Source: an uncultured Microcaldota archaeon
GTDB lineage: Archaea; Micrarchaeota; Micrarchaeia; CAILAH01
Direction: 5' to 3'
DNA length: 35,927 nucleotides
Assembly: GCA_903832205.1 (NCBI GenBank)
Contig: CAILAH010000017.1
Location: forward strand, 1 to 35,927
Part shown: piece by piece, positions 6,203 to 31,145 of the stretch
Numbering within the stretch: position 1 is the first letter of the stretch
How the letters are laid out: the number at the start of each line of letters is the position of its first letter
The notes under the pieces: generated by a model
The model's database searches: none
What the model was told of the DNA's origin: nothing
The model's input: only the letters and a program-made list of their open reading frames with translations
Position numbers and translations under genes: made by a program

Positions 6203-7660
6203 TTATCCCTTTACCACTCCGTGGGGGATCATGCGCGTTACCGCTTTTGCGAGCTTTGCGCCCACCACGGAATCTATCACGTCATCAATATCCTTGTATG
6301 CGCCAGGCGCCTCCTCGGAAATCACTTCGCTTTCTGCGGAGCGTATGTAAATGCCCTTCTGATTAAGCAGGTCCTTTACCATTGAGACCGGGTATGTGCG
6401 AATTGCCTCGTGCCTGCTCATGACCCTCCCTGCACCGTGGCACACTGAATGGAATGATTCTGCTGAGTCTGCAGTGCCCACGAGCACGTAGGATGCGGTG
6501 CCCATGCTTCCCGGGATCATCACCGGCTGGCCCACATCACGGTATGATGCGGGGACTTCCGGGCGGCCTGCTGGCATTGAGCGTGTCGCGCCTTTCCTGT
6601 GCACCCACACGAATCCCTTCTGGCCGTTTTCAAGAACGTGCTCCTCGCGCTTGCCGATGTTGTGGCACACGTCGTAAAGAACATCCATCCCCAAATCCTC
6701 AGGGTCCTGCTTAAGTATGATGCCAACTGATTCGCGCACCCAGTGCGTGAGCAGCTGCCTGTTGACGAATGCGAAGTTCACCGCGCAGTTCATTGCCTTA
6801 ATGTAATCGCTGCCTTCGGTTGAATCCACGTGCGCGTAAACGAGCTCGCGGTCGGCCAAGGTGATGTTGTGCTTGTTCACGTATGAATTGAATGTGCGTA
6901 TGTAATCCGAAGCGACCTGGTGCCCGAGCCCGCGCGAGCCGGTGTGTATCATGATAACGAACTGGCCGGGAAAGAGGCCGAACTTCTTCGCAACCTCCTC
7001 ATCAAGCACCTGGTTGACTTCCTGCAATTCAATGAAATGGTTTCCCGAGCCGATGGTGCCGAGCTGCGGCTTGCCCCGCGAAATCGCCATGTCGCTGACC
7101 TTTGACGGGTCCGCATCCTTCATGCGGCCGTTCTCCTCAATGTAATGCAGATCGCGGTCCCAGCCGTACCCCTCGCGCACCGCCCACTCAACGCCCTCAG
7201 TAAGCACCTTCTTCAGAGTTGTTGGGTCGAGACGAACTTTTCCTTTTGAGCCAACGCCCGAAGGGCAGTTCTCATAAATCGAGTTGATGAGAGGATGCAG
7301 ATGTTGCACCACATCCTTGTACATGAGATTAGTCTTGAGCAGGCGGACGCCGCAATTTATGTCATAGCCAATCCCTCCGGGCGAGATGATGCCCTCCTCA
7401 TCGCGGAATGCGGCAACACCGCCGATTGGGAACCCGTAGCCCTCGTGGCCGTCGGGCATAACATATGCGGAGCGCACGATGCCCGGAAGGGACGCGACGT
7501 TGCAAATCTGCCTGAGCGTCCTGTCACCCTTCATCTTGTCGAGCATTTTCTCGGATGCAAACACCTGAGCAGGCACATTCATATTGCCCGTCTGCGGAAT
7601 CTGCCAAACATAATTGCTGATTTTGTTGAACGTTATTGTGGGTGTTTCTTCCTCTGTCAT
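6203..7660 (-). CDS. rtcB: RNA-splicing ligase RtcB
   Basis: A 485-residue RtcB, the GTP- and Mn-dependent ligase that joins 2',3'-cyclic-phosphate and 5'-OH RNA ends, including tRNA halves after intron excision. Visible motifs in order: MPDGHEGYGFPIGGVAAF (about 68-85), GGIGYDINCGVRL (95-107, with metal ligand Cys103), GSGNHFIELQEV, HTGSRGLGH, CHNIGKREEH, HRKGATRSMPAG, and the active-site segment FHSVCHGAGRVMSR containing the guanylylated His. No intein is present. The frame is open to 7885, but that part overlaps the divergent gene; the ATG at 7660 (MTEEETPTITFN) has a TATA box about 20 bases upstream and gives the usual length. It is upstream of trmI on the same strand. Confidence 0.97.
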   Translation of the reverse strand: MTEEETPTITFNKISNYVWQIPQTGNMNVPAQVFASEKMLDKMKGDRTLRQICNVASLPGIVRSAYVMPDGHEGYGFPIGGVAAFRDEEGIISPGGIGYDINCGVRLLKTNLMYKDVVQHLHPLINSIYENCPSGVGSKGKVRLDPTTLKKVLTEGVEWAVREGYGWDRDLHYIEENGRMKDADPSKVSDMAISRGKPQLGTIGSGNHFIELQEVNQVLDEEVAKKFGLFPGQFVIMIHTGSRGLGHQVASDYIRTFNSYVNKHNITLADRELVYAHVDSTEGSDYIKAMNCAVNFAFVNRQLLTHWVRESVGIILKQDPEDLGMDVLYDVCHNIGKREEHVLENGQKGFVWVHRKGATRSMPAGRPEVPASYRDVGQPVMIPGSMGTASYVLVGTADSAESFHSVCHGAGRVMSRHEAIRTYPVSMVKDLLNQKGIYIRSAESEVISEEAPGAYKDIDDVIDSVVGAKLAKAVTRMIPHGVVKG

Positions 7661-7675
7661 TGGAGTTCCTTTTGG

Positions 7676-7692
7676 GTATAAAGGTATATTAA
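7676..7692. promoter_or_regulatory. Overlapping divergent TATA boxes for rtcB and the PrsW-like gene
   Basis: GTATAAAGG (7676-7684; CCTTTATAC on the minus strand) lies 16-24 bases before the rtcB ATG. GTATATTAA (about 7684-7692) lies 23-31 bases before the plus-strand ATG at 7715. The two elements abut, so the divergent promoters may compete. Confidence 0.5.
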
Positions 7693-7714
7693 GATGGCGG
7701 TTTAATGCTATTTT

Positions 7715-8758
7715 ATGGCCTATCTCGAGCTTGCGGTGTGGCTTTTTGCGGCAACCGCAATTATGATGGTGCTTGCCCTTTACACGGCACTGCACAAAAA
7801 GGGATGGCTGGCAATTGTGGACGTGTTCATGCCGGAGATGAGAGGGCTCACGCCAAGCTCTGAGGTCGCTGCAATCATCGTCCACCCTCTATTCTGGATT
7901 ACATGCGTTGGAATCGTAACATTCTTCACAATCTCGCTCATGTTTACAATAGACCTGACAAAGGTGGGCTATGAATGGCTCGCGTTCTCTTTTTCACTGG
8001 TCATATTCTTCGCATTGTTCGACCCCATGGTGATATGGTTCAGCGAGGGAAAGTACAGGGAGCCGCTGAGGTTCGTGTTCGGCGCATTAAGCTACGGGAT
8101 GTTGTGCGCGTTGGTTGCATTCTTCTTCAACTCCATGGCCAGCCTCTTGCTTAACGAGGAATTCGGCCCCAAGATGGGCGTGCTCATGCTGATAGCCGCA
8201 GCACCGGTGATTGAGGAAGTGCTCAAGATGTTCGGAGTGATTCTCCTTTCAGGGCACAAGAACTTCAGGGGACCGCTTGATGGGATACTTATCGGGTTTT
8301 CAGTAGGTGCAGGGTTCGCAATGGTGGAGAACATATTCTACATATCAACAAAGATACCGGAGAACTCGATTGAGCTGCTCCTGTTCCGCGCGTTATATAA
8401 TACACTGGCGCACGGCGCGTTCACCGCAATAGGAGGCGCGGTGCTCGGCAAGATAAAGCAGGATTTCAAGAAGCCGAACCTGCTGCTGCTTACGGTCCCG
8501 GTGCTGGTTGCCGCGCTCACGCATACCGCATTCAATGTATTGGCAATCGTGGATATAGTGGGAGTCAATTCGCTCGTGCTCAGTTACTACATATTCAGCC
8601 CCGCAATGGTTGTGGCACTGCTCATCATCGTTGCAATACTCATTTTCTACAACTGGAGTGACAGGAAAAAGAGGATGAACAAGGAGCTTGCGGAGCTGGG
8701 CGTGGATGCGAATTTTGACAAGGAATTTGCAAAGCTGAAGAAGAAGGCGAACAAATAA
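7715..8758 (+). CDS. PrsW-like intramembrane metalloprotease
   Basis: A 347-residue membrane protein with about eight predicted helices. The middle has the PrsW-family signature: APVIEEVLKMFGV (about 168-180, with the Glu pair), DGILIGFSVGAGFAMVENIF (about 188-207), HGAFTAIGGAVLG and HTAFNVL. These Glu and His residues are the expected metal and catalytic ligands. PrsW proteases cleave membrane-bound anti-sigma factors in Bacillus; archaeal members exist but their substrates are not established, and there is no anti-sigma target here. The C-terminus (about 310-347) is a charged cytoplasmic tail. The start is a probable leaderless ATG, with a TATA box overlapping the divergent rtcB promoter. 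Confidence 0.85.
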   Translation: MAYLELAVWLFAATAIMMVLALYTALHKKGWLAIVDVFMPEMRGLTPSSEVAAIIVHPLFWITCVGIVTFFTISLMFTIDLTKVGYEWLAFSFSLVIFFALFDPMVIWFSEGKYREPLRFVFGALSYGMLCALVAFFFNSMASLLLNEEFGPKMGVLMLIAAAPVIEEVLKMFGVILLSGHKNFRGPLDGILIGFSVGAGFAMVENIFYISTKIPENSIELLLFRALYNTLAHGAFTAIGGAVLGKIKQDFKKPNLLLLTVPVLVAALTHTAFNVLAIVDIVGVNSLVLSYYIFSPAMVVALLIIVAILIFYNWSDRKKRMNKELAELGVDANFDKEFAKLKKKANK

Positions 8759-8801: not shown

Positions 8802-10460
8802 TTAGTCCATGTCGCCCATTCCACCCATGCCGCCCATTCCGCCTGGGCCGCCGGGTGGCATCTGGGGCCTGCCCCTGCTCGCGATGACGTCGTCAATGCG
8901 TAGAATCATCTCTGCCGCTTCGGACGCGCTCACGATTGCCTGCCTCTTCACCTTCACGGGCTCAATGACGCCAATCTTAGCCATGTCGCCAATCTTGCCC
9001 GCGTGCACATCAACGCCAAAGGTCTTCAGGCCCTCGTTGTGCTTTGCGCGCAGTGAAACGAGCGTGTCGATTGCATCCATGCCCGCGCTTTCCGCAAGCG
9101 TCTTTGGGACGACTTCGAGCGCCTTTGCGAACGCATCAACTGCGAGCTGCTCACGGCCACCTATCTCGCGCGCATATGCGCGGAGCTTCTCCGCAAGCTC
9201 GATTTCTGCGCTGCCGCCGCCCGTGACATACATGCCTTCCTCGATGACACTGGATACGGAGCCGAGCGCATCCTTGCATGCGCGCTCAACCTCGTTCACC
9301 ACGTGCTCGCTGCCGCCGCGTATGAAAAGCGTAACGCTCTTTGGGTTCTTGCATTCCTTCACGAACACCATCGCCTCGCCCGCAATCTTCTTCTCCTCAA
9401 CAACGCCCGCAAACCCTATGTCATCCTTGGTGGCGTCATCCAGCGAGCTGATGAGCTTTGCGCCCGTTGCGCGCGCGAGCTTTTCCATGTCGCTCTTCTT
9501 CACGCGCCTCACCGCGGCGATTCCCTTCTTTGCGAGGAAGTGCTGTGCGAGGTCATCAATGCCCTTCTGGCAGAACAGGACGTTCGCGCCCGTTGCCGCA
9601 ATCTTGTCAACCATTGACTTGAGTATGTCCTCCTCCTGCCTCAGGAATGCGGTCAGCTGCTCGGGTGCGGTAATCTCAATCTTCGTGTCGGTCTCTGGCT
9701 TTTCAATTTCGAATGCCGTGTCAACGAGAGCGACTTTTGCGTTCTTTATCTCCTTGGGCATTCCGGTGTGCACGATTTCCTTGTCCACAATGATGCCGCG
9801 TATGAGGGAGGTGTCATCCGTGCTGCCGCCCTCCTTTTTCTCAATCTTAATCTGCTCTATGTCAATGTCAAGCGACGTGCCCTTGTCATCGGCGACCATG
9901 AGGATGGCGTCAACGACGAGATTTGCCAGGTGCGATTTTGAAGTGCCCACGCCCGCGCTCTTGGAGCCGAGCGAAACCTCCGCAATCTTCACGAGCGTCG
10001 GCTTGTCTTTGGGGTCGACCTTCTCGCCGATTGTCTTTAGGTATTCGGATGCCTTGCCCGATGCGGCACGGTATCCCTTAACGATTGTGCTTGCGTGGAT
10101 GTTCTGGTCAAGCAGGTCGCCCGCGTTCTTAAGGAGCTCGCCTGCGATTGCCGCGGCGGTTGTGGTGCCGTCGCCCACTTCCTTGTCTTGCGCCTTGGCG
10201 ACTTCAACAACCAGCTTTCCTGCCGGGTGCTCGAGGTGCATTTCCTCGAGGATGGTCGCGCCGTCGTTCGTAATGACGATGTCGCCCATGTCGCTCACGA
10301 GCATCTTGTCCATGCCCTTGGGGCCGAGCGTGGTGCGCACTGCGCTTGCGACCGCGTATGCCACAGCAATATTGGTGCGCTGTGCGTCGCGGCCGATCAT
10401 CCTGCTCGAGCCTTCCGGCAGTATTAAAACCTGTTGTCCATTCATATTTGCTGTTGCCAT
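8802..10460 (-). CDS. ths: Thermosome subunit (group II chaperonin)
   Basis: A 552-residue group II chaperonin that forms the ATP-driven, lidded double ring for protein folding. Landmarks: the N-terminal QQVLILPEGSSRMIGRDAQR, TTLGPKGMDKMLV (ATP site), DIVITNDGATILEEM, GDGTTTAAAIAGELL (catalytic Asp), the apical domain with its helical protrusion in the middle, and GVIEPVKVKRQAIVSASEAA near the C-terminus. The tail is the usual Gly/Met repeat ending GGMGDMD. GAGGTAGAG lies about 8 bases before the ATG at 10460, and a TATA box lies at 10515-10523. It converges on the PrsW-like gene with only 43 AT-rich bases between stops. Confidence 0.98.
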   Translation of the reverse strand: MATANMNGQQVLILPEGSSRMIGRDAQRTNIAVAYAVASAVRTTLGPKGMDKMLVSDMGDIVITNDGATILEEMHLEHPAGKLVVEVAKAQDKEVGDGTTTAAAIAGELLKNAGDLLDQNIHASTIVKGYRAASGKASEYLKTIGEKVDPKDKPTLVKIAEVSLGSKSAGVGTSKSHLANLVVDAILMVADDKGTSLDIDIEQIKIEKKEGGSTDDTSLIRGIIVDKEIVHTGMPKEIKNAKVALVDTAFEIEKPETDTKIEITAPEQLTAFLRQEEDILKSMVDKIAATGANVLFCQKGIDDLAQHFLAKKGIAAVRRVKKSDMEKLARATGAKLISSLDDATKDDIGFAGVVEEKKIAGEAMVFVKECKNPKSVTLFIRGGSEHVVNEVERACKDALGSVSSVIEEGMYVTGGGSAEIELAEKLRAYAREIGGREQLAVDAFAKALEVVPKTLAESAGMDAIDTLVSLRAKHNEGLKTFGVDVHAGKIGDMAKIGVIEPVKVKRQAIVSASEAAEMILRIDDVIASRGRPQMPPGGPGGMGGMGGMGDMD

Positions 10461-10514
10461 AATTCTCTACCTCAAAAGTATTTCGGGTATTACGGGTCTA
10501 TTCAAGTTAATAAG

Positions 10515-10523
10515 TAATAAATA
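10515..10523 (-). promoter_or_regulatory. TATA box of the thermosome gene
   Basis: The minus strand reads TATTTATTA, 55-63 bases before the ATG. This predicts a leader of about 30 bases that includes the GAGGT ribosome-binding site. Confidence 0.45.
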
Positions 10524-10563
10524 GGTTTCGATGGTGCCAGGGCAATTGGCAAAATTACGGCGT

Positions 10564-21612: not shown

Positions 21613-23631
21613 TTAGTAGCCCCTTTCCTCTTTGAGCCTCTTTAGCCTTGCCATCTTCTCCCTGAGCTCAAACTCAAGGCCGTCGATTTCAGAATCTGCC
21701 TTCTTTGGCTGCTCACGTGGCTCCTTCGGGGCCTTCTCCTTTGCGGGCCTTGGCTCCTTCTGTGCCATTGCGGGAGCCGCTGCCACTGATTCACTTGGAG
21801 AAACTGACTCGCGGGTTGCCATATCGCCAACGGTGACGCGCACCCTCTGGTTCTGCTCCGCGTGTGCAGGCATATGCTCATCGTGCGGCTGCGCGTTGCC
21901 CACCATGTAGGTGTAAACAACAAAGAATATGGCAGCTGCAAATATCAGCGCGCCTAAAATGGTCCAAAGGGGCATGGTTGCCTTGATTGCGTCTGCGGGT
22001 GACATTTCACCTGCGAACACGGCAAGGATTGCGCCGAGCATATCACTGGATACGCCGCTTGCTGCATCCACATCGCCTCCCTGATTCTGGCTCATGTTAA
22101 GCGGCTTTATAGGCGGCTTGCTGACCAATGGCACTTCCTTCACCGTAACCACGTTCGTGCCGGATATGGCATACTTGCTCGATTTGAACGTATAATCGCC
22201 AGTTGTTGCGGGGACAAAGGTCAACTTTCCGCCGTTCTTTGTAACCAGCGAAACGGACCTGCCGTCTGGCATGACGACAGTCACGACTACACCGTCAACA
22301 GGGTTGCTATTTGAGTCGAGCACGTTAATCTCAATTGTGTCGCCCACATATGCGGATTCGGGGAGCACGAACTTGAGCACGGTACTGCCACTTAGAGGCG
22401 GTTTCGTGGGTTCGGTGCCGCTGTTTCCAGTGTTTGTGCCCGTATCCGTGCCTGTATTATTGCCTGTTGGAGTGACATTTGTATCCGAGCCTGTGCCGCT
22501 GGTCCTTCTCTTGCTCGGGTCGTAATTCGAAGAGGTGTCCTTCTTGGTCACCAGTATTGTGACTGAGCCGATAAGGCTTGCGTTTGTGCGCGAGGTTGCA
22601 GTAACGGTTGCAGTGCATGCGTTCTGTGAAGAGAACGTGCTTCCCTGCACCACGCCGCAGCTTGTGCCGAAGTCAACGTTTGCGGTTGCCTGGCCGTTGC
22701 CATACTGGTCAACTTCCAATGCGGTCAGCGAGACCGGGTCAGTAGTGTAAACGTTTGTATTGCTTGCCTGCAATGAGAGCGAGCGTACCTGGCCGAAGTT
22801 GACAGTAAGCGTTGAGGTACCGCTCTTGCCGCCGAACAGCGCACTTACGCTGTGCGCGCCGGCTGATGCTGCCACAAGCTTTGGCGAGTAAATCGTTCCC
22901 GCGCCGCCTGAATTCCAGGTTGCCGCAGAGGTGACGTCCTCCTGGTGGCCATCATTGTAGGTTGCTGTTGCTGTGAGCGTTACTTCGCTTCCTGCATTTA
23001 CAGTGGCGCTGCTTAAGCCAACAGCAACTGACTGGACCACGGGGGTCGTGTCAACTGCGGTCGGCTCCAAAGTTGAAGTGACAGTTATGGTTCCTGCAGG
23101 CGCAAGCGAAACGTGGTAAGACTGTTCCGCATGGAATGGTGCGCTGAATATTACATCATAGTCGCCTGGCGAAACGTAAAGATTGCCTGATGCGCCATCA
23201 AGCCTTGCGACAACCTCGTTGCCGCCCTGCATCACGCGCACGAAGCCGTTTGCAAGCGGTGCTGATGCATTGTCATTTACAACTGCATGTATTGTTGCCT
23301 GCGGCACGAGCAAAAGGTTGCCCATGTCAACTGCGCTTGAGGCGCCCACATCTGCTGTGAATGAGCTGCTTGAATAGCCGGTGTCCACAACCCTAACCGT
23401 GTAATGGCCTGTTGCGTTTGCGAGCGAAAATGTGCCGTCCGCTGCGCTTGTGAGCTGCGAAACGAGCACGTTGCCTGAATCGTAGACGTTCACCTGCGCA
23501 TTTGCAATGCCGCCCATGCTCATGGCGTCAACGACTTTTCCAGTAAGGCTGCCTGCAGCTACAGGTGACGCAAGGATTGCGAAAAGAAAAACAAATGCAA
23601 GAATTATGTTTTTTATAGTCATCATCATCAC
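21613..23631 (-). CDS. Membrane-anchored surface protein with Ig-like domains and a charged cytoplasmic tail
   Basis: A 672-residue exported protein. The signal peptide (about 1-26, IILAFVFLFAILASPVAAG) is followed by a carboxypeptidase-regulatory-like domain (27-95, GSLTGKVVDAMSMGGIANAQ), a second similar domain, Big_2-like Ig domains (about 200-365), and a Thr/Asn/Gly linker (about 375-410) suited to spanning a wall or outer layer. Another Ig-like unit follows. One membrane helix (about 553-577, WTILGALIFAAAIFFVVYTY) leads into a tail of about 95 residues ending in a Lys/Glu coiled coil (LREKMARLKRLKEERGY). Four ATGs follow one another at the start, overlapping the upstream stop as TGATG, so the exact start is uncertain. 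It is probably the membrane partner of the 1612-residue protein. Confidence 0.82.
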   Translation of the reverse strand: MMMMTIKNIILAFVFLFAILASPVAAGSLTGKVVDAMSMGGIANAQVNVYDSGNVLVSQLTSAADGTFSLANATGHYTVRVVDTGYSSSSFTADVGASSAVDMGNLLLVPQATIHAVVNDNASAPLANGFVRVMQGGNEVVARLDGASGNLYVSPGDYDVIFSAPFHAEQSYHVSLAPAGTITVTSTLEPTAVDTTPVVQSVAVGLSSATVNAGSEVTLTATATYNDGHQEDVTSAATWNSGGAGTIYSPKLVAASAGAHSVSALFGGKSGTSTLTVNFGQVRSLSLQASNTNVYTTDPVSLTALEVDQYGNGQATANVDFGTSCGVVQGSTFSSQNACTATVTATSRTNASLIGSVTILVTKKDTSSNYDPSKRRTSGTGSDTNVTPTGNNTGTDTGTNTGNSGTEPTKPPLSGSTVLKFVLPESAYVGDTIEINVLDSNSNPVDGVVVTVVMPDGRSVSLVTKNGGKLTFVPATTGDYTFKSSKYAISGTNVVTVKEVPLVSKPPIKPLNMSQNQGGDVDAASGVSSDMLGAILAVFAGEMSPADAIKATMPLWTILGALIFAAAIFFVVYTYMVGNAQPHDEHMPAHAEQNQRVRVTVGDMATRESVSPSESVAAAPAMAQKEPRPAKEKAPKEPREQPKKADSEIDGLEFELREKMARLKRLKEERGY

Positions 23632-26600
23632 CCGTACATTGTCACGTTCTTTGCAAGCTCCGTAAGCGGAGGCAGGTAGAGCGTGTAAAGCGACCTCTGG
23701 TAGTTCGGATGCGTGGTCTCAACCATGTACACTCCTGCGGGCAGTATGAATTCATATCCGCCGTTTGCAAGTGAGGTTGCAGTTGCCACGAGGTTTCCGT
23801 TCCTGTATGCGTTGAGCGTCGCGCCGCTCACGGACTCATTGGTGCTGTTTGAGACAGTGCCGTAGAGCCTGGACATCTTTGTCAATGCATAGTTCCTGGT
23901 CGTTGTGCTGCCGTCGAGCACGTGGATGCCGTAGTCCCTGGCGGGCAGGTAGCCCGTTGCGGTGACCACCACATCATAGGTGTCTGCCGGCAGGTTGAAT
24001 GAGAATGCGCCTGCCGCATCGGTCGTTGTGCTGAATATCACCGCATAGTTCTTCATCACGGTCACGTTGGCGCCCTGGATGGGTGCGCCGCTCGTGTTGG
24101 AGACGACGCCGTTAAGGACGCCGTTGCCTGAAGGCTGCGTCACCGTCACATTCGTTGTGTTGGTGAGCGCTGCCGCGGTTGCTGTGACCATGTAGTTGCC
24201 TGCTGTGTTTGAGCTGAACTGTGCGATCGCCCTTCCGTTTGAATCCGTGTTGACGGATGCCGGCGCGACACTGCCGTTGCTCGCTGTGAACAAGACGGAC
24301 TGGTTCGCCAAAGGCGCGCCGTACTGGTCAAGCACAGTTGCGGTTATGGTGCTCGTTGCGCCTGCGAATATGCTCACAGGGTTTGCAACAAGCTGCAGGA
24401 CGGTTGCGACTGATGCTGCAGTCACTTCCACTGAAGAGCTGTTCTGCATAACGCCTGAAGTTGCGTTGACTGTGTAGTTGCCCACAACTGTGGAGCTGAA
24501 CTGCACTGTCGCATAGCCGGTCGCATTCGTGGTTGCGGTTGCTGCGGACAGGTTGCCACCATCAGCGGTAAAGTTCACCTGCTGGTTCGCAACACCTGCA
24601 CCGTACTGGTCAATCACGCGTGCGGTCACTGCGCTGTGGCCCACTGTAGATATTGCTGCGGGCATCGCAGAGAGCTGAATGCCTGAAGGCACTGAGCCTG
24701 CGCTCACGTTAACCGTGGTTGAGTTTGTCGCTGCGCCTGCCGTTGCGTTTATCGTGTAAACGCCCACAACGGGTGCGCTGAACTGTGCGGATGCGCGGCC
24801 GTTTGCATCGGTAAGCGCCGATGCGGGTGCGATTATTCCGTCAGAAACGAAGTTGACGGTTGCACCGCTTATTGGCTGGCCGAGCGCGTCGCGCACGGTT
24901 GCGGTAACGATGCTCGTGCTTCCGGTGGACAGGTTGTTCGGCACCGCCACCAGGTCAACTGATGCGGGCGGAATAACGTTCACTGAAATGCCGGTTGTGT
25001 TCTGCAGTGCGCCGGTGCTCGCGTTAATGCTGAACATGCCGGGCAATATGGAAACGAACTGTGCAACTGCACGGCCGTTTGCATCCGTGTTCACTGAAGA
25101 GGGCAAAAGAATGCCGCCGCTTGCAGTGAACGCAACGGGTGTGTTTGCAACAGGCTGGCCCCTTGCGTTAAGCACAATTGCCGTAACGGTGCTTATCTGA
25201 CCCACAAGCATGTTGTTGGGCGCTGCGGTAAGCTGCACCGTTGCCAGAGGCACGTCGCTCACCGTAATAACTGTCGAGTTGCTGAGCGCGCTTGAATTTG
25301 CAGCAATTGTATATACACCAGTTATTGAAGTGCTGAAATCCACCAGTGCGTCACCGCTTGCGTTTGTGATTATGGTTATTGGCGAGTTGCTGTATCCGAC
25401 AACAACGTAATCCACTGGCACATTCGCCATCGGCTGGCCGTTCGCATCGAGCGCCTTCGCAGTTATGTTTACTACGTCATCAACGTAAACACTGTTGTTT
25501 GTCGCTGAGATCTGTAGCGTTGTAAGAACAGGCTGCGGGGGCAATACGGTAAGGTCAAAGAAAAGTCCGCTCCTTAGACTACCACCTATGTGCGGCATGC
25601 CCTCAGCAAACACAAGGATCTGAAGATCCCCGTTGTAAACCGAATTATTCACGTCAAAGCTACAGACAGTTGTGAAATTACACTCCTGCACAGTTGTGCC
25701 GTTTATCTGTATTATCATCTTAGATATGCCTGTTGCGTCATCAGCTGTTGCACTAACTGTGAAAGGCTGTGCAACAATGCTGTGCGGCCCGGGTGTTGGC
25801 GGAATAACTCGGACCATTGGGTACACATTATCTACTAAATATGTGCGCTGCACGCTTGCTTCGTTGCCGCGGGTGTCGTTTGCAGTTGCAATAACTGCAA
25901 CCTGCCCGTCGGGATATGCGGAGGTGTCTATCACCACGTTGCATGCGGCAGTTGCGCAATTTGCAACCTGCGTTGATGTTGAGCCGTTTACAACTGAGAT
26001 TACAGTTGCCGCATAGTGCGGGTCTGCCGCCAAAGTTGCAACCGGCAGGTTGCCGCTCAGGCACATGAAATCATATGGAGTCGGGTCCACCCAAGAAATT
26101 ACTGGCGAGCTGACATCAAGTCCGCCGAGCGTAAAGTCAAGCACGACCGGAACGCCCGGGTTTATCATTGTGCCTGCGGAGACGGTATCATAGCCGGGTG
26201 CGGTTGCAGTCACCATGAATTGCGCCAATGCTGAGTTGGGCGCAACGTTGAAAGCATAGTGGCCGTTTGCATCGGTGAGCACGCTGGTGCTGTACACGCT
26301 GTTTTCATAGAGCGTGACGTTTGCATTCTGCATTAGCTGTGCGTTCTCGTCCCTCACGTTTCCTGAAATTGATGTAAGTACCCTCACCTGCATGTCCTGC
26401 GTGTAGTTGTTATTCTGGTCGTCCTTCAAAATCTGGAAGTTGTCAACACGCTCGGTTTGGTAGCCTGCCTTGCTGAACGTTATGCTGTAGTTGCCGTTCA
26501 GGTTTACATTATCAATCCTGTAGGTACCGTTTGCATCTGTTATTGCACTGTACGGCGTGCCCTCTATCTGCACCAGAACGCCCTGGAGCGGTGCCGGACG

Positions 26601-28466
26601 CGTGTAATAATCTGCTACAACACCTGAAAGTGTTGCGTCAGGTATGGACACGGTGAACTGGTCGTTGTCGGTTATTGAAGTGCCGTCGATGTTCATACTG
26701 TAAAGCACGTTGCCTTCAGTAGCGCCAACGGTTACTGCAATGGAAGCAATCCCGTCAACACCAGTATTAATCTGCGCATTGTTCGGCATTGCCGTACCGC
26801 TGAGCACATTGTAATTCACAACGACTCCCTGCACAGGGTTACCGAACTGGTCGGTAACGTTTGCAAAGAGCGTGTGCTGGCTGTTTACAACAGCTGTCGG
26901 GCCCTCTGATAATGCATCAATCCTTGCCGCGGGCCCGTTGGTAACTGTAACGGCTGCGTTTGCGCTGACACCGTTTGAACTGACAGTGACGACATCATCG
27001 CCGACTTTTTGCGGCGCTGTGTAGAGGCCGTTTGCATTGGCAGTTCCGTTAACTGCAGACCAGGTGTATACAGCATTAGGTACCGTTGCATTGTACTGGT
27101 CGTAGAGCACTGCGGTGAACTGCTGCTGTGCGCCCGCAACAACATTTGCTGTAATCGGCTGTATCACAACATAGGACACGTTGCCGTTCCTCACAATCAC
27201 CTGCGCGGTGCCGCTTACTGGCGTTAGCACAACTAGCGGAGAGTTGAAGCAACCGAGCTTGGGAACGCACTGCTGTAGAATAGTTATACTATCATAATAG
27301 ACAGTCGCCGCGATCGTTGAGGCGCCCGGATGCACTGCGGTTGCAACACCGGTCTGGCCCACTGTGGCGACAGATTCATCGCTGCTTGTCCAGTTGATTT
27401 CCTTGCCAGTTATCTCATTCATGTACTTATCGTACACGCGTGCATTGTACTGGACCATCTCATGGACGTTGAGTGTGTTTGTAGCTGGCGCAACAAGAAC
27501 CGATGCGGGAACATCCGGAACAACACTAAAGTAAAATGCCTTGCTCTGGCTGGGACAGAGGAACTGGTCCTTTGTTTTTACTATAACGTGGCTCGTTCCT
27601 GCCAAATTGCCGATTGGAAGCATGAAGCTGACCACACCGCTTGAATCGGAAGAGTTCTTCAGCGAAACCTTCGTGCCGTTCGGTGAGGTGTATTCAAGCT
27701 CCATGGCAACACCGGGCTTTGTGTTGTTATACAAGTCCATTGTGGCTGCGGAAACGGCGATATTATCGCCTGCTGTGTACTGCGCTGAAAGCTCATCCGC
27801 GATGAACGCATTGCATGCACCAGGTATTACGGTGACATTTGCAGAAACAGTCTTGCCCGAGTAATCGGCCTTAAGCATGGTGGTGCCTGCCTTGGAGCCG
27901 ACAAACTGGACCTGGTTCTTTGTCGTAATGCTGGGATGCGAAAGCGCGCCTACACTATTATTAGTAAGCGAAAATGCCGGCTCGGGGACAACTGCAGAGC
28001 CGTCCGGCGCATAGGCACTGGTGGTGAAGTAGTACGGCGTTCCTGCAACTGCAGTATCGAGCTTTACCGGGTCAATGTTAAGCGATTTTATTTCCTGCAC
28101 ACAGCTTGCGGTAGGCTCAAGCACAACAGCGACCTGTAGGCTGTTGCCGCTTATATAATATGTACCACGCGCCTGGGTGGAGGTAAACTTGAATGTGCAG
28201 ACTCCATCCGAGCCGGTCTTGCATCCAAGGTTGGTGTCAGCGTAATTCTGGCTGTACACCTTGATTTGCTTGCCTGGCGAGGATGTGACCTTGATATCAC
28301 AGTACCTTGGCACTGTCTGCGGGTTAACGCTCAATCCGCTCGGTGCGGCGAAAACGTTCGCCACATCGGGATTGTAGATTGTGTCTCCCTGGATGTTCAC
28401 CACAAATGCAGATGTGGAGGCCAGCAGGAAGAGCAGCCCAATTATTATGATTGCCTTGTTGTCCAT
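23628..28466 (-). CDS. Giant Ig-repeat surface protein (adhesin-like)
   Basis: A 1612-residue exported protein, the largest gene here. The signal peptide (about 1-22, AIIIIGLLFLLASTSAFVV) leads to beta-domains with paired cysteines (about 23-330), a Big_2 domain (about 332-395), further Ig units, and two carboxypeptidase-regulatory-like domains (about 610-780). Two Ig-like domains with cysteine pairs (about 785-975) precede five tandem Big_1/invasin-like repeats of about 94 residues (about 979-1447) and two C-terminal regulatory-like domains, ending at MYG. Sequons N-x-S/T are abundant. There is no C-terminal membrane helix, so it must be held by a partner, most simply the next gene. AGGTGGTG before the ATG overlaps the stop of the upstream gene. 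Adhesion or cell-surface structure is inferred. Confidence 0.88.
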   Translation of the reverse strand: MDNKAIIIIGLLFLLASTSAFVVNIQGDTIYNPDVANVFAAPSGLSVNPQTVPRYCDIKVTSSPGKQIKVYSQNYADTNLGCKTGSDGVCTFKFTSTQARGTYYISGNSLQVAVVLEPTASCVQEIKSLNIDPVKLDTAVAGTPYYFTTSAYAPDGSAVVPEPAFSLTNNSVGALSHPSITTKNQVQFVGSKAGTTMLKADYSGKTVSANVTVIPGACNAFIADELSAQYTAGDNIAVSAATMDLYNNTKPGVAMELEYTSPNGTKVSLKNSSDSSGVVSFMLPIGNLAGTSHVIVKTKDQFLCPSQSKAFYFSVVPDVPASVLVAPATNTLNVHEMVQYNARVYDKYMNEITGKEINWTSSDESVATVGQTGVATAVHPGASTIAATVYYDSITILQQCVPKLGCFNSPLVVLTPVSGTAQVIVRNGNVSYVVIQPITANVVAGAQQQFTAVLYDQYNATVPNAVYTWSAVNGTANANGLYTAPQKVGDDVVTVSSNGVSANAAVTVTNGPAARIDALSEGPTAVVNSQHTLFANVTDQFGNPVQGVVVNYNVLSGTAMPNNAQINTGVDGIASIAVTVGATEGNVLYSMNIDGTSITDNDQFTVSIPDATLSGVVADYYTRPAPLQGVLVQIEGTPYSAITDANGTYRIDNVNLNGNYSITFSKAGYQTERVDNFQILKDDQNNNYTQDMQVRVLTSISGNVRDENAQLMQNANVTLYENSVYSTSVLTDANGHYAFNVAPNSALAQFMVTATAPGYDTVSAGTMINPGVPVVLDFTLGGLDVSSPVISWVDPTPYDFMCLSGNLPVATLAADPHYAATVISVVNGSTSTQVANCATAACNVVIDTSAYPDGQVAVIATANDTRGNEASVQRTYLVDNVYPMVRVIPPTPGPHSIVAQPFTVSATADDATGISKMIIQINGTTVQECNFTTVCSFDVNNSVYNGDLQILVFAEGMPHIGGSLRSGLFFDLTVLPPQPVLTTLQISATNNSVYVDDVVNITAKALDANGQPMANVPVDYVVVGYSNSPITIITNASGDALVDFSTSITGVYTIAANSSALSNSTVITVSDVPLATVQLTAAPNNMLVGQISTVTAIVLNARGQPVANTPVAFTASGGILLPSSVNTDANGRAVAQFVSILPGMFSINASTGALQNTTGISVNVIPPASVDLVAVPNNLSTGSTSIVTATVRDALGQPISGATVNFVSDGIIAPASALTDANGRASAQFSAPVVGVYTINATAGAATNSTTVNVSAGSVPSGIQLSAMPAAISTVGHSAVTARVIDQYGAGVANQQVNFTADGGNLSAATATTNATGYATVQFSSTVVGNYTVNATSGVMQNSSSVEVTAASVATVLQLVANPVSIFAGATSTITATVLDQYGAPLANQSVLFTASNGSVAPASVNTDSNGRAIAQFSSNTAGNYMVTATAAALTNTTNVTVTQPSGNGVLNGVVSNTSGAPIQGANVTVMKNYAVIFSTTTDAAGAFSFNLPADTYDVVVTATGYLPARDYGIHVLDGSTTTRNYALTKMSRLYGTVSNSTNESVSGATLNAYRNGNLVATATSLANGGYEFILPAGVYMVETTHPNYQRSLYTLYLPPLTELAKNVTMYG
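24126..25530 (-). repeat. Five tandem Big_1-like repeats within the giant surface gene
   Basis: Each unit is about 280-290 bases and encodes a repeat with the core pattern T-A-x-V-x-D-x-x-G-x-P-x-x-N, then V-N-T-D-x-N-G-R-A-x-A-Q-F, then G-x-Y-x-I-N-A-T. Units are diverged at the DNA level, so recent expansion is not evident. Confidence 0.75.
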
Positions 28467-28472
28467 CTAAAT

Positions 28473-30245
28473 TCACCACCTAATTATTATTCCAAGCCCC
28501 GGCAGGAACATTGAGTTGCTGCCTATCTTGATATAGCGGAAGCTTGCGTTGAGGTCAACGGTATCGTTGATGCTCACAATCTTTGCATTTCCGAACACTG
28601 TCCAGCCGTCAACTGCCTGTGCGTTGTAGAGAAGCTCTCCGTTGTATTTCTTCCCCTCATGATCGTAAGTGCTGTTTGCAGTATCGAAGTGCCCCCTGTA
28701 TGCGGTGCCACCAATTAGGTATGCCGCACCTGCATTAAGGAAACGCCATGTGAGTGAGCCTCCAACCTCACCTGCTCCCAGGAACTTATAGTTGGGGTTT
28801 GCGTTCATGTTATACATGAGGCCGCCAATCACAACGTTTGGGTAAATCGGCATGTCCTTCCAAATCGGAAGCTGTACCTGGAATGTGCCCGCCTGCACTA
28901 AGTAGTTAGAGATGTTTGCACCATCCTGGAATGAGCCGAGCATTCCATCCATCTGGAATATAACCGGATAATCGCTCTGGGTGTCCCAGTATTCCATTGC
29001 GAGCCTTGTGGGCGCATCCTCGCGGAACTGCGTGCTTGCGAGCAGCCTGAATGTGTGGCTGTTCATCATGAGCATCAGGCCCCAGGATTCGCGTGCAAGC
29101 TCGCCGTTCAAAGTTGCGAGCGCGTTCATGCTGAGGTCATCGAACTTCAGCTGCACACCTGCACCGAGCAGTGATGCGTGCCTAGAGGATGAGCCTTCAT
29201 TGAGCGAATAATTGCCGCCATCATAGCCGCCCATCACTGAGAGGCCGAAGTGGTCGGACAGGCCGACGCTCAATACAACCGGCGCAGAGCCGGAGATTGC
29301 GTTGAGCTCCCTGCCATAGGGGTCGAGAATATTCACATATGCGCCGCCCATTGGCACTGCAATCTCAAAGCGCTTAACAGCACTTTCTTTTTCTTTGTCC
29401 TTTATGGTTTTTGTGAGCGCCTTGTTGTCTTCCGGTTCTGAGGTTTTGCCTTTCTCTTCACCGGTATCTTCCTTGTCTTGATTCTCGTTCCTGACAATGG
29501 TGACGGTCGGCTTTTGTGGCTCATCTTTCTTCTTGCCATCTGTCTTGTCCTTGTTAGCATCCTTTCCATCTGCAGCCTTTGTGGGCGCAGTGAACTTCAG
29601 CTTGTCGCAGCCCTCAAGCTTCTTGCCCTGCTTTGTCGCCATGTCGCAGATTGCCTGCTCGTTTGCCTTCTGGTCGACCTGTGCCGGAGCGGCAACCTCT
29701 TTCTTTCCGTTATCCTTTGAAGCTTTCTTATCACCAGTTGTTGGAGGGCCCGTAACAACTGCAGGTGCCTTCTTAGTAGGAGTGCCGCATTTGTCGTTGC
29801 ACTTGCACCACTGCTCAAGGACTTCCCTGAAGGATTTTAGGACCTCTGAGAAATTTTTTGAATCGAGTTTTTGCTCCTTGACAAACCTTGCTGCGGCAAC
29901 TGCAATGCGCGCATTCATGGTGTCCTCATCGAGCTTGCCCTTTTTGTAGGAATCGTATTCTGACTTAAGCTTTGCATCGGGAACAACGCTATACTGCGCC
30001 TTGGTGACGCAGGCCGTTTCAACTGCGGGCTTTGCTTCCTGTGCGTGGGCGCCGCTTGAGAACGCCATAAGGACTGCGAATGCAGTTCCTGCAGCAATCC
30101 TGCGTACGCCGACTGGAACGTGGCTAAGCCACGATTCATTCATGCGTGTTTCCGAGCCCACTGCCTTAACGGATTTCACGCTTGCGCTGAAATCCTGTTT
30201 GGCATCAGCAAACATTACTTCTGACATTTTCATTGAACGAGTCAT
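28473..30245 (-). CDS. Exported protein with beta-barrel-like C-terminal half
   Basis: A 590-residue protein of no family I recognise. Residues 1-49 are an unusually long n-region; a hydrophobic core (50-62, IAAGTAFAVLMAF) ends at an A-x-A site after residue 68 (SSGAHA). A cysteine-containing helical part (about 69-160, with CKCNDKC) is followed by a Lys/Asp/Thr-rich linker (about 160-285). The last 300 residues are rich in short alternating hydrophobic/polar strands and Gly/Asn turns, for example VLSVGLSDHFGLSVMGGYD and GSLTWRFLNAGAAYLIGG, and end at GLGIIIRW with a terminal aromatic. This resembles an outer-membrane beta-barrel. AAGGGGGT about 6 bases before the ATG at 30245 supports the long N-terminus. 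It is first in the surface-protein operon. Confidence 0.75.
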   Translation of the reverse strand: MTRSMKMSEVMFADAKQDFSASVKSVKAVGSETRMNESWLSHVPVGVRRIAAGTAFAVLMAFSSGAHAQEAKPAVETACVTKAQYSVVPDAKLKSEYDSYKKGKLDEDTMNARIAVAAARFVKEQKLDSKNFSEVLKSFREVLEQWCKCNDKCGTPTKKAPAVVTGPPTTGDKKASKDNGKKEVAAPAQVDQKANEQAICDMATKQGKKLEGCDKLKFTAPTKAADGKDANKDKTDGKKKDEPQKPTVTIVRNENQDKEDTGEEKGKTSEPEDNKALTKTIKDKEKESAVKRFEIAVPMGGAYVNILDPYGRELNAISGSAPVVLSVGLSDHFGLSVMGGYDGGNYSLNEGSSSRHASLLGAGVQLKFDDLSMNALATLNGELARESWGLMLMMNSHTFRLLASTQFREDAPTRLAMEYWDTQSDYPVIFQMDGMLGSFQDGANISNYLVQAGTFQVQLPIWKDMPIYPNVVIGGLMYNMNANPNYKFLGAGEVGGSLTWRFLNAGAAYLIGGTAYRGHFDTANSTYDHEGKKYNGELLYNAQAVDGWTVFGNAKIVSINDTVDLNASFRYIKIGSNSMFLPGLGIIIRW

Positions 30246-30308: not shown

Positions 30309-31145
30309 CTATTTGCCTAGTTCTGCAACGAGGGCTCTTGGCAGCACTCCCAAAAGGCCGGTTGGCATGAAAAAGGGACCGCATTCGCGGCTAAGGGATG
30401 CACCGGCCTTTTTGACCGCACTTGCACCCGCATATGCCGCATCGAACGGCTCAACACCCTGCGCAATAAGCGATGCGCACACGCCTGCGAGAATGTCGCC
30501 CGTCCCGCCTTTTGCGAGATAGACCGATTTGCCTGACGTGTCCTCCACTTCCTTCACGCGCTTCCCGTCCGAAATATAATCAATTGGGCCTTTTGCGAGA
30601 ATTGTACAGCCGACTGAGAATGCGGTTGTTTTTATTGCGCTTGAAGAAAGCGCTTCATTGCCAGAAATGAGCGAGAACTCCTTGAGATTGGGTATGAGCA
30701 AATCCTTTGCGCAAAGGTCCACGAGGTTTGTGCAGTAGAGCGCATCAGCGTCGAAAATGAATGGGATGCTCTTGTGCTCCTTGTGCAGCTGCGCGAGCAG
30801 GTCGAATGATTTTTTCTCACGGCCCATGCCGCTTCCGACGAGCACTGCCGTGACGTTGCGCTTCATTATTGAATTTATTTCAGTGAAATGGTCCGTGTCA
30901 AGGACGTCGCCGCTGAGAGGGTAGGAGACAAGGTCTGGAGAATATGCGACTGCAATGTCCGCGACGCGCTTGGGTGCGGCAATGGTCACCAGGTCAACGC
31001 CGGCAACTGCGGCGCCTAGTGCATTAAGAAGAGGTGCGCCCGCATAGTGCTTGCTGCCTCCGATAATTAGCAAATGCCCATAATCATACTTCTTTGAGTT
31101 GAGAGGGCGCTTCACAATGTCTTTCAGCTTGCGTTCGCGCTCCAT
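30309..31145 (-). CDS. nnrD: ADP-dependent NAD(P)H-hydrate dehydratase
   Basis: A 278-residue member of the YjeF C-terminal / NnrD family (ribokinase-like fold), which repairs hydrated NADH and NADPH at the expense of ADP. HLLIIGGSKHYAGAPLLNAL (about 25-44), VGSGMGREK (about 98), FDADALYC (about 126), NLKEFSLISG and the active-site KGGTGDILAGVCASLIAQG (about 217-235) are all present. The epimerase half (NnrE) found in fused archaeal forms is not part of this gene and not in the window. A TATA box (31170-31178) about 28 bases before the ATG predicts a leaderless mRNA. It stands between the surface-protein block and tRNA-Lys. Confidence 0.93.
   Translation of the reverse strand: MERERKLKDIVKRPLNSKKYDYGHLLIIGGSKHYAGAPLLNALGAAVAGVDLVTIAAPKRVADIAVAYSPDLVSYPLSGDVLDTDHFTEINSIMKRNVTAVLVGSGMGREKKSFDLLAQLHKEHKSIPFIFDADALYCTNLVDLCAKDLLIPNLKEFSLISGNEALSSSAIKTTAFSVGCTILAKGPIDYISDGKRVKEVEDTSGKSVYLAKGGTGDILAGVCASLIAQGVEPFDAAYAGASAVKKAGASLSRECGPFFMPTGLLGVLPRALVAELGK

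Follow-up and report, generated by a model that had tools for sequence, protein, structure and literature searches.

Integral outer-membrane beta-barrels are a textbook trait of bacteria, mitochondria and chloroplasts, and the insertion of barrels into outer membranes is thought to require proteins of the Omp85 family. Described systems resemble the archaeal locus reported here either in fold or in organization; our comparison spans the outer-membrane protein families that appear among the listed structural matches. The bacterial polysaccharide exporters PgaA (4y25), BcsC and PelB share with the archaeal protein 16 strands and a C-terminal barrel placed behind an exported N-terminal part, a similarity of fold only. 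They differ in sequence (6–10% identity), in that no TPR scaffold was found with the archaeal barrel, and in genomic context: the archaeal gene is flanked by genes for Ig-repeat proteins and for a dehydratase, with the secretion-like cluster nearby, and no polymer synthase genes were identified in this neighborhood. The PopA-type porin superfamily (Bdellovibrio and others), marked by a plug and by loop-8 oligomerization, also has 16 strands and is similar at the level of fold (Z 10.3–10.5 against the archaeal models); however, it gives no sequence match to the archaeal barrel.

In organization the nearest systems are two-partner secretion (type Vb, TpsB/TpsA) and intimin/invasin (type Ve), which likewise combine an outer-membrane barrel with a large repetitive adhesin. 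Neither has any sequence relation to the archaeal barrel. In TpsB the barrel is preceded by POTRA, whereas the archaeal protein carries no Pfam domain at all; in intimin and invasin an N-terminal barrel is fused to the Ig-like passenger, whereas in the archaeal system the barrel occupies the C-terminus of one protein and a separate gene encodes the Ig repeats.

Among archaea, Ignicoccus Ihomp1 is comparable as a pore protein of a second membrane. Ihomp1, the major pore protein of that outer membrane, reportedly has no beta-barrel shape and includes an alpha-helical domain (PMC3422733). A possible distal PopA relative in DPANN Altiarchaeales, a different archaeal lineage, has been mentioned in one sentence (PMC12228718). 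Within an incomplete coverage of the literature we found no paper on beta-barrels in Micrarchaeota; outer-membrane barrels are a known kind of protein, and none of the papers found describes a lineage-specific family of them in Micrarchaeota that occurs with no Omp85 in evidence.

The barrel gene and its product

The gene lies in a window (the whole stretch of DNA that was analyzed) of 35,927 nucleotides from an uncultured member of the Micrarchaeota, a phylum of DPANN archaea. Features are collected in Table 1. The start codon is backed by an N-terminus retained in the nearest relative (MTRSMK / MARSMK), and a search for a second copy across nearly the whole source genome revealed no paralogue.

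Table 1. Coordinates of the barrel gene, its parts and its neighbors in the window.
Feature	Position	Strand	Description or basis
Third gene, 672 aa	21613..23631	minus	overlaps stop of giant gene; secreted Ig-like, one C-terminal transmembrane helix plus tail
Giant secreted protein, 1612 aa, presumed partner	23628..28466	minus	repeated Big_1 / Invasin_D3 / carboxypeptidase-regulatory-like domains
Barrel protein gene	28473..30245	minus	ATG start, 590 aa; lone intact copy in genome
Terminal strand GLGIIIRW	28476..28499	minus	fits beta-signal pattern of outer-membrane proteins, polar-x-Gly-x-x-hydrophobic-x-hydrophobic
C-terminal predicted 16-strand beta-barrel domain, residues 291-590	28476..29375	minus	AlphaFold2 and structural matches
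Charged, presumably disordered linker, residues 161-290	29376..29765	minus	composition; L018 counterpart pLDDT <50
Small helical segment with CKCNDKC, ~residues 92-160	29766..29972	minus	L018 model helices 132-188; aligned residues in alignment A1
Extended N-region and signal peptide, residues 1-67	30045..30245	minus	hydropathy; predicted cleavage after GAHA
NAD(P)H-hydrate dehydratase	30309..31145	minus	upstream neighbor in 4/5 barrel loci
Divergent type-IV-secretion-like cluster	about 31438 to 34958/35412	plus	kept beside barrel locus in family

The initial annotation, made from the sequence, had proposed a signal peptide, a cysteine-bearing helical part, a charged linker and a beta domain, and hydropathy and composition bear out both the parts and their order. 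The hydrophobic segment closes on an A-X-A-like site (GAHA, followed by QE), and equivalent signal-peptidase sites occur in relatives (for example SYA, FSA and ASA); read at the level of motifs this is a Sec-type signal sequence, an assignment supported by computation. Four cysteines (79, 147, 149 and 153) fall within a Lys-rich helical segment, the counterpart of which in the relative from Micrarchaeota archaeon SKW51 (L018) is modeled as helices at a pLDDT of about 57–81. The linker of approximately 130 residues is 21% Lys and 20% Asp plus Glu. The 300-residue beta domain, by comparison, is 12% Gly, is poor in Lys and Glu, and contains no Cys.

Predicted fold and structural neighbors

AlphaFold2 predicts 16 antiparallel strands for the C-terminal domain (pLDDT 84.7, pTM 0.80, from a four-row alignment). 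The full-length SKW51 protein, 35–40% identical, is also predicted to have 16 strands in identical order, and its model adds a small stretch of helices and a linker that is disordered. The two models of different family members thus agree on an even-stranded, antiparallel up-and-down barrel, the closure of which we infer from structural alignments. A Foldseek search of the PDB returned 152 chains at E≤0.001, and the 50 matches listed are outer-membrane proteins; at the same threshold, the viral matches that carry names are likewise outer-membrane-type barrels. TM-scores among the matches listed are only 0.2–0.46, and the exact shape of the barrel therefore either differs from that of known structures or is imprecisely modeled. 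With VIA-align the best listed match is 4y25 for both the source protein (Z 12.4, rmsd 4.8, 235 aligned residues) and the SKW51 relative (Z 13.1, rmsd 4.9, 246 aligned residues), and for each model all 50 listed matches are outer-membrane barrels. A soluble beta-sandwich or propeller, the outcome that would have counted against the initial annotation, was not what the predictions returned.

The many short amphipathic strands that had been read into the last 300 residues are also apparent quantitatively. Averaged over the alignment, inside/outside alternation on the AlphaFold2 strands gives z 4.5, above all 3000 within-strand shuffles; the single source sequence gives z 2.6 (p 0.007), and the value is positive in each of the six family members (z 1.66 to 4.02). 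Alternation of hydropathy occurs in soluble beta proteins as well. What separates a membrane protein from a soluble one here is the single 16-strand sheet, since a soluble protein could not fill the interior of so large a barrel with a hydrophobic core. Taken as a model, the barrel fold of the C-terminal domain is well supported.

The family shows a further hallmark at its C-terminus. The terminal aromatic residue noticed in the initial annotation (IIIRW) is a Trp that stands last in five of six family members (28–40% identity), and the full beta-signal pattern is present in three of the six; ends among relatives include ELGLLIRW, QFGIIIVW, QLNLLIRW and PLQFILRW. A paralogue in one genome (G003, L008; L120:9082-10179) is shorter, lacks the terminal aromatic and ends KSRRA; it may be a degraded copy.

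The short contig that bears this paralogue also carries a homologue (L120:16-2772) of a second candidate exported protein of 1491 aa (L121:4938-9413, minus strand of G000 contig C41). The C-terminal ~440 residues of this protein are rich in glycine and aromatic residues and end in Tyr (Phe in G003). Clear matches are confined to G000 and G003, with sugar-nucleotide genes nearby in both; as a candidate barrel it shows no significant strand alternation.

Distribution and archaeal origin

Whole-genome searches located the barrel family in all five searched genomes of one Micrarchaeota family and in none of 296 others, which make up the rest of the class; as searched, the class is coextensive with the phylum. 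A genome from another family of the same class (G033) has no barrel gene; its sole match (E 0.1) falls within the linker. A scan of contigs with the single barrel protein gave no match, whereas a scan with an alignment (A3) recovered three named loci: Micrarchaeota archaeon SKW51, 'Candidatus Micrarchaeum sp.' SulCav_AS07-7 and Micrarchaeota archaeon SKW92. Sequence searches of Pfam, NCBIfam and the PDB with the barrel protein returned nothing informative, and no relatives were found in the viral contigs searched.

The spacer varies within the family. In one relative (L004:493-2697, genome G002) it contains ankyrin repeats, and in SKW92 (L020) a longer insert; both fit a variable, presumably extracytoplasmic spacer. 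Ankyrin repeats are uncommon outside the cytoplasm.

That the gene belongs to an archaeon is supported by computation. The contig carries an archaeal-type gene for ribosomal protein L10, and equal gene order recurs in five metagenome-assembled genomes; on these grounds bacterial contamination was rejected.

Assembly machinery and envelope

If the protein were inserted by a BAM-type machine, then an Omp85 protein should be encoded in the same genomes. A BamA/Omp85 homologue, the presence of which the initial annotation had proposed as a check, was found in none of the five: the Omp85 model (PF01103), which scores above its threshold in seven bacterial genomes used as controls, gave no match at E≤10 in genomes that are 61–93% complete. 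The POTRA model (PF07244) gave one weak match, in G002, which proved to be valyl-tRNA synthetase, and none that is genuine. The probability of missing a universal Omp85 in all five genomes through incompleteness is about 2 in 10,000 (the product of missing fractions 0.18, 0.36, 0.11, 0.07 and 0.39, assuming independence), although a profile search would miss a strongly diverged insertase. Since no genome encodes a recognizable Omp85/BamA, we do not class the barrel protein as a BAM-dependent outer-membrane protein.

We found no images of cells of the barrel-bearing lineage in the literature, and reports on the envelopes of other Micrarchaeota conflict. ARMAN cells are described as having inner and outer membranes by Comolli 2009, as cited in PMC4243693, whereas a single membrane with an S-layer is shown for Micrarchaeum harzensis (PMC8975820). 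The ARMAN images do not apply directly to the barrel-bearing lineage. The proposal of an outer-membrane barrel in an archaeon, with which the analysis began, divides: the predicted barrel fold and the archaeal lineage stand, while no Omp85/BamA was found and an outer membrane is undocumented in this lineage.

A presumed giant Ig-repeat partner

In all five genomes a giant Ig-repeat gene starts within 10 bases downstream of the barrel gene. The N-terminal 330 residues of its product have strong matches (E 1e-58 or better) only in the five barrel-bearing genomes; a few other genomes match this region only at E about 1e-4. Big_1 and Invasin_D3 are domains known in bacterial adhesins, and the giant protein weakly matches intimin models. 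The third gene has a counterpart of equal size and kind, in the same order, in L018 and L019. Computation supports the pairing of barrel and giant through gene order among related genomes. The divergent cluster encodes a weakly matching TrbC/VirB2-like protein, two conserved membrane proteins and a VirB4/TraG-like ATPase, and is conserved at the level of sequence in four loci and of gene size in L019.

These observations are consistent with an integral beta-barrel, specific to this lineage, that serves in a second membrane to anchor or export its giant, adhesin-like partner, an explanation to which we give about an even chance. The protein would be exported by the Sec pathway and cut by signal peptidase after GAHA. 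Its small helical domain and long charged linker would then sit between the two membranes, and the C-terminal barrel would enter the outer one, its last strand serving as an aromatic-terminated beta-signal. The giant product of the same operon may be anchored at the barrel or exported through it. Barrel and giant would then make up a two-gene adhesin system, functionally like the bacterial barrel/Ig-adhesin systems and of independent sequence, and such a surface system may serve host contact.

A wider proposition, which we advance tentatively and would not call probable, is that these archaea possess a genuine outer membrane and integral barrels of their own, and that insertion proceeds without a recognizable Omp85 machine, along a route that is either unknown or evolved independently. 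If real, the protein would rank with the earliest candidates for an outer-membrane barrel in the archaeal domain. A confidently predicted barrel in an archaeal lineage where Omp85 is not detected opens two old questions to experiment: are some archaea genuinely diderm, and can a machine other than Omp85 insert a barrel?

Alternative explanations

The barrel could instead be a general diffusion pore, or a polymer exporter like PgaA or BcsC, with a functionally unrelated downstream neighbor. The closest listed folds are indeed exporters of 16 strands that carry helical parts at the N-terminus (PgaA, BcsC and PelB); however, no TPR domain was found, polysaccharide synthase is absent among the annotated neighbors, and the Ig-repeat gene accompanies the barrel gene in all five genomes. 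We consider this explanation unlikely.

It is also conceivable that the barrel is exported along with the giant adhesin and inserts into a partner cell's membrane, forming a pore there, perhaps with the help of the type-IV-secretion-like machine. Cultivated Micrarchaeota need hosts, and one described host, Scheffleriplasma, is single-membraned (PMC8975820). The secretion-like cluster adjoining the barrel gene, the linked Ig-repeat protein and the failure to find BAM machinery in the barrel-bearing genomes all accord with such a pore. Against it, the length of the linker and the conservation of the N-terminal part point to retention of the protein by its producer, and a terminal beta-signal is typical of proteins assembled into the producer's own outer membrane. 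A pore in the host membrane therefore seems to us distinctly improbable.

Finally, the domain may be a soluble or surface-layer-associated beta-rich one, and the barrel an artefact of AlphaFold2 working from a shallow alignment. The alignments of four rows, the low global TM-scores, the alternation, which occurs in soluble beta proteins too, and the fact that no outer membrane is known for this lineage would all allow for this. Yet pTM is 0.80, a different query gives equal topology, the listed structural neighbors are exclusively outer-membrane proteins, and the domain combines a terminal aromatic with a low content of Lys and Glu, so that an artefact is, in our judgment, quite unlikely. A Cyc2-type cytochrome-porin fusion was rejected, the sequence of the barrel protein having no CXXCH heme motif.

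Having set these aside at the strengths given, we continue to favor the barrel that anchors or exports the giant partner.

Other features of the window

Three further regions of the window deserve mention. Two ORFs of 552 and 571 aa (8802-10460, minus; 8809-10524, plus) overlap almost completely on opposite strands, and the plus-strand ORF has no NCBIfam match. On the minus strand (6203-7885) an RtcB-family protein matches only the C-terminal portion of an intein-containing RtcB model. Between 10741 and 16013 a winged-helix regulator, an ABC ATPase and two MacB/LolC-like permeases lie in series; such permeases can act in envelope transport and are common in monoderm cells too.
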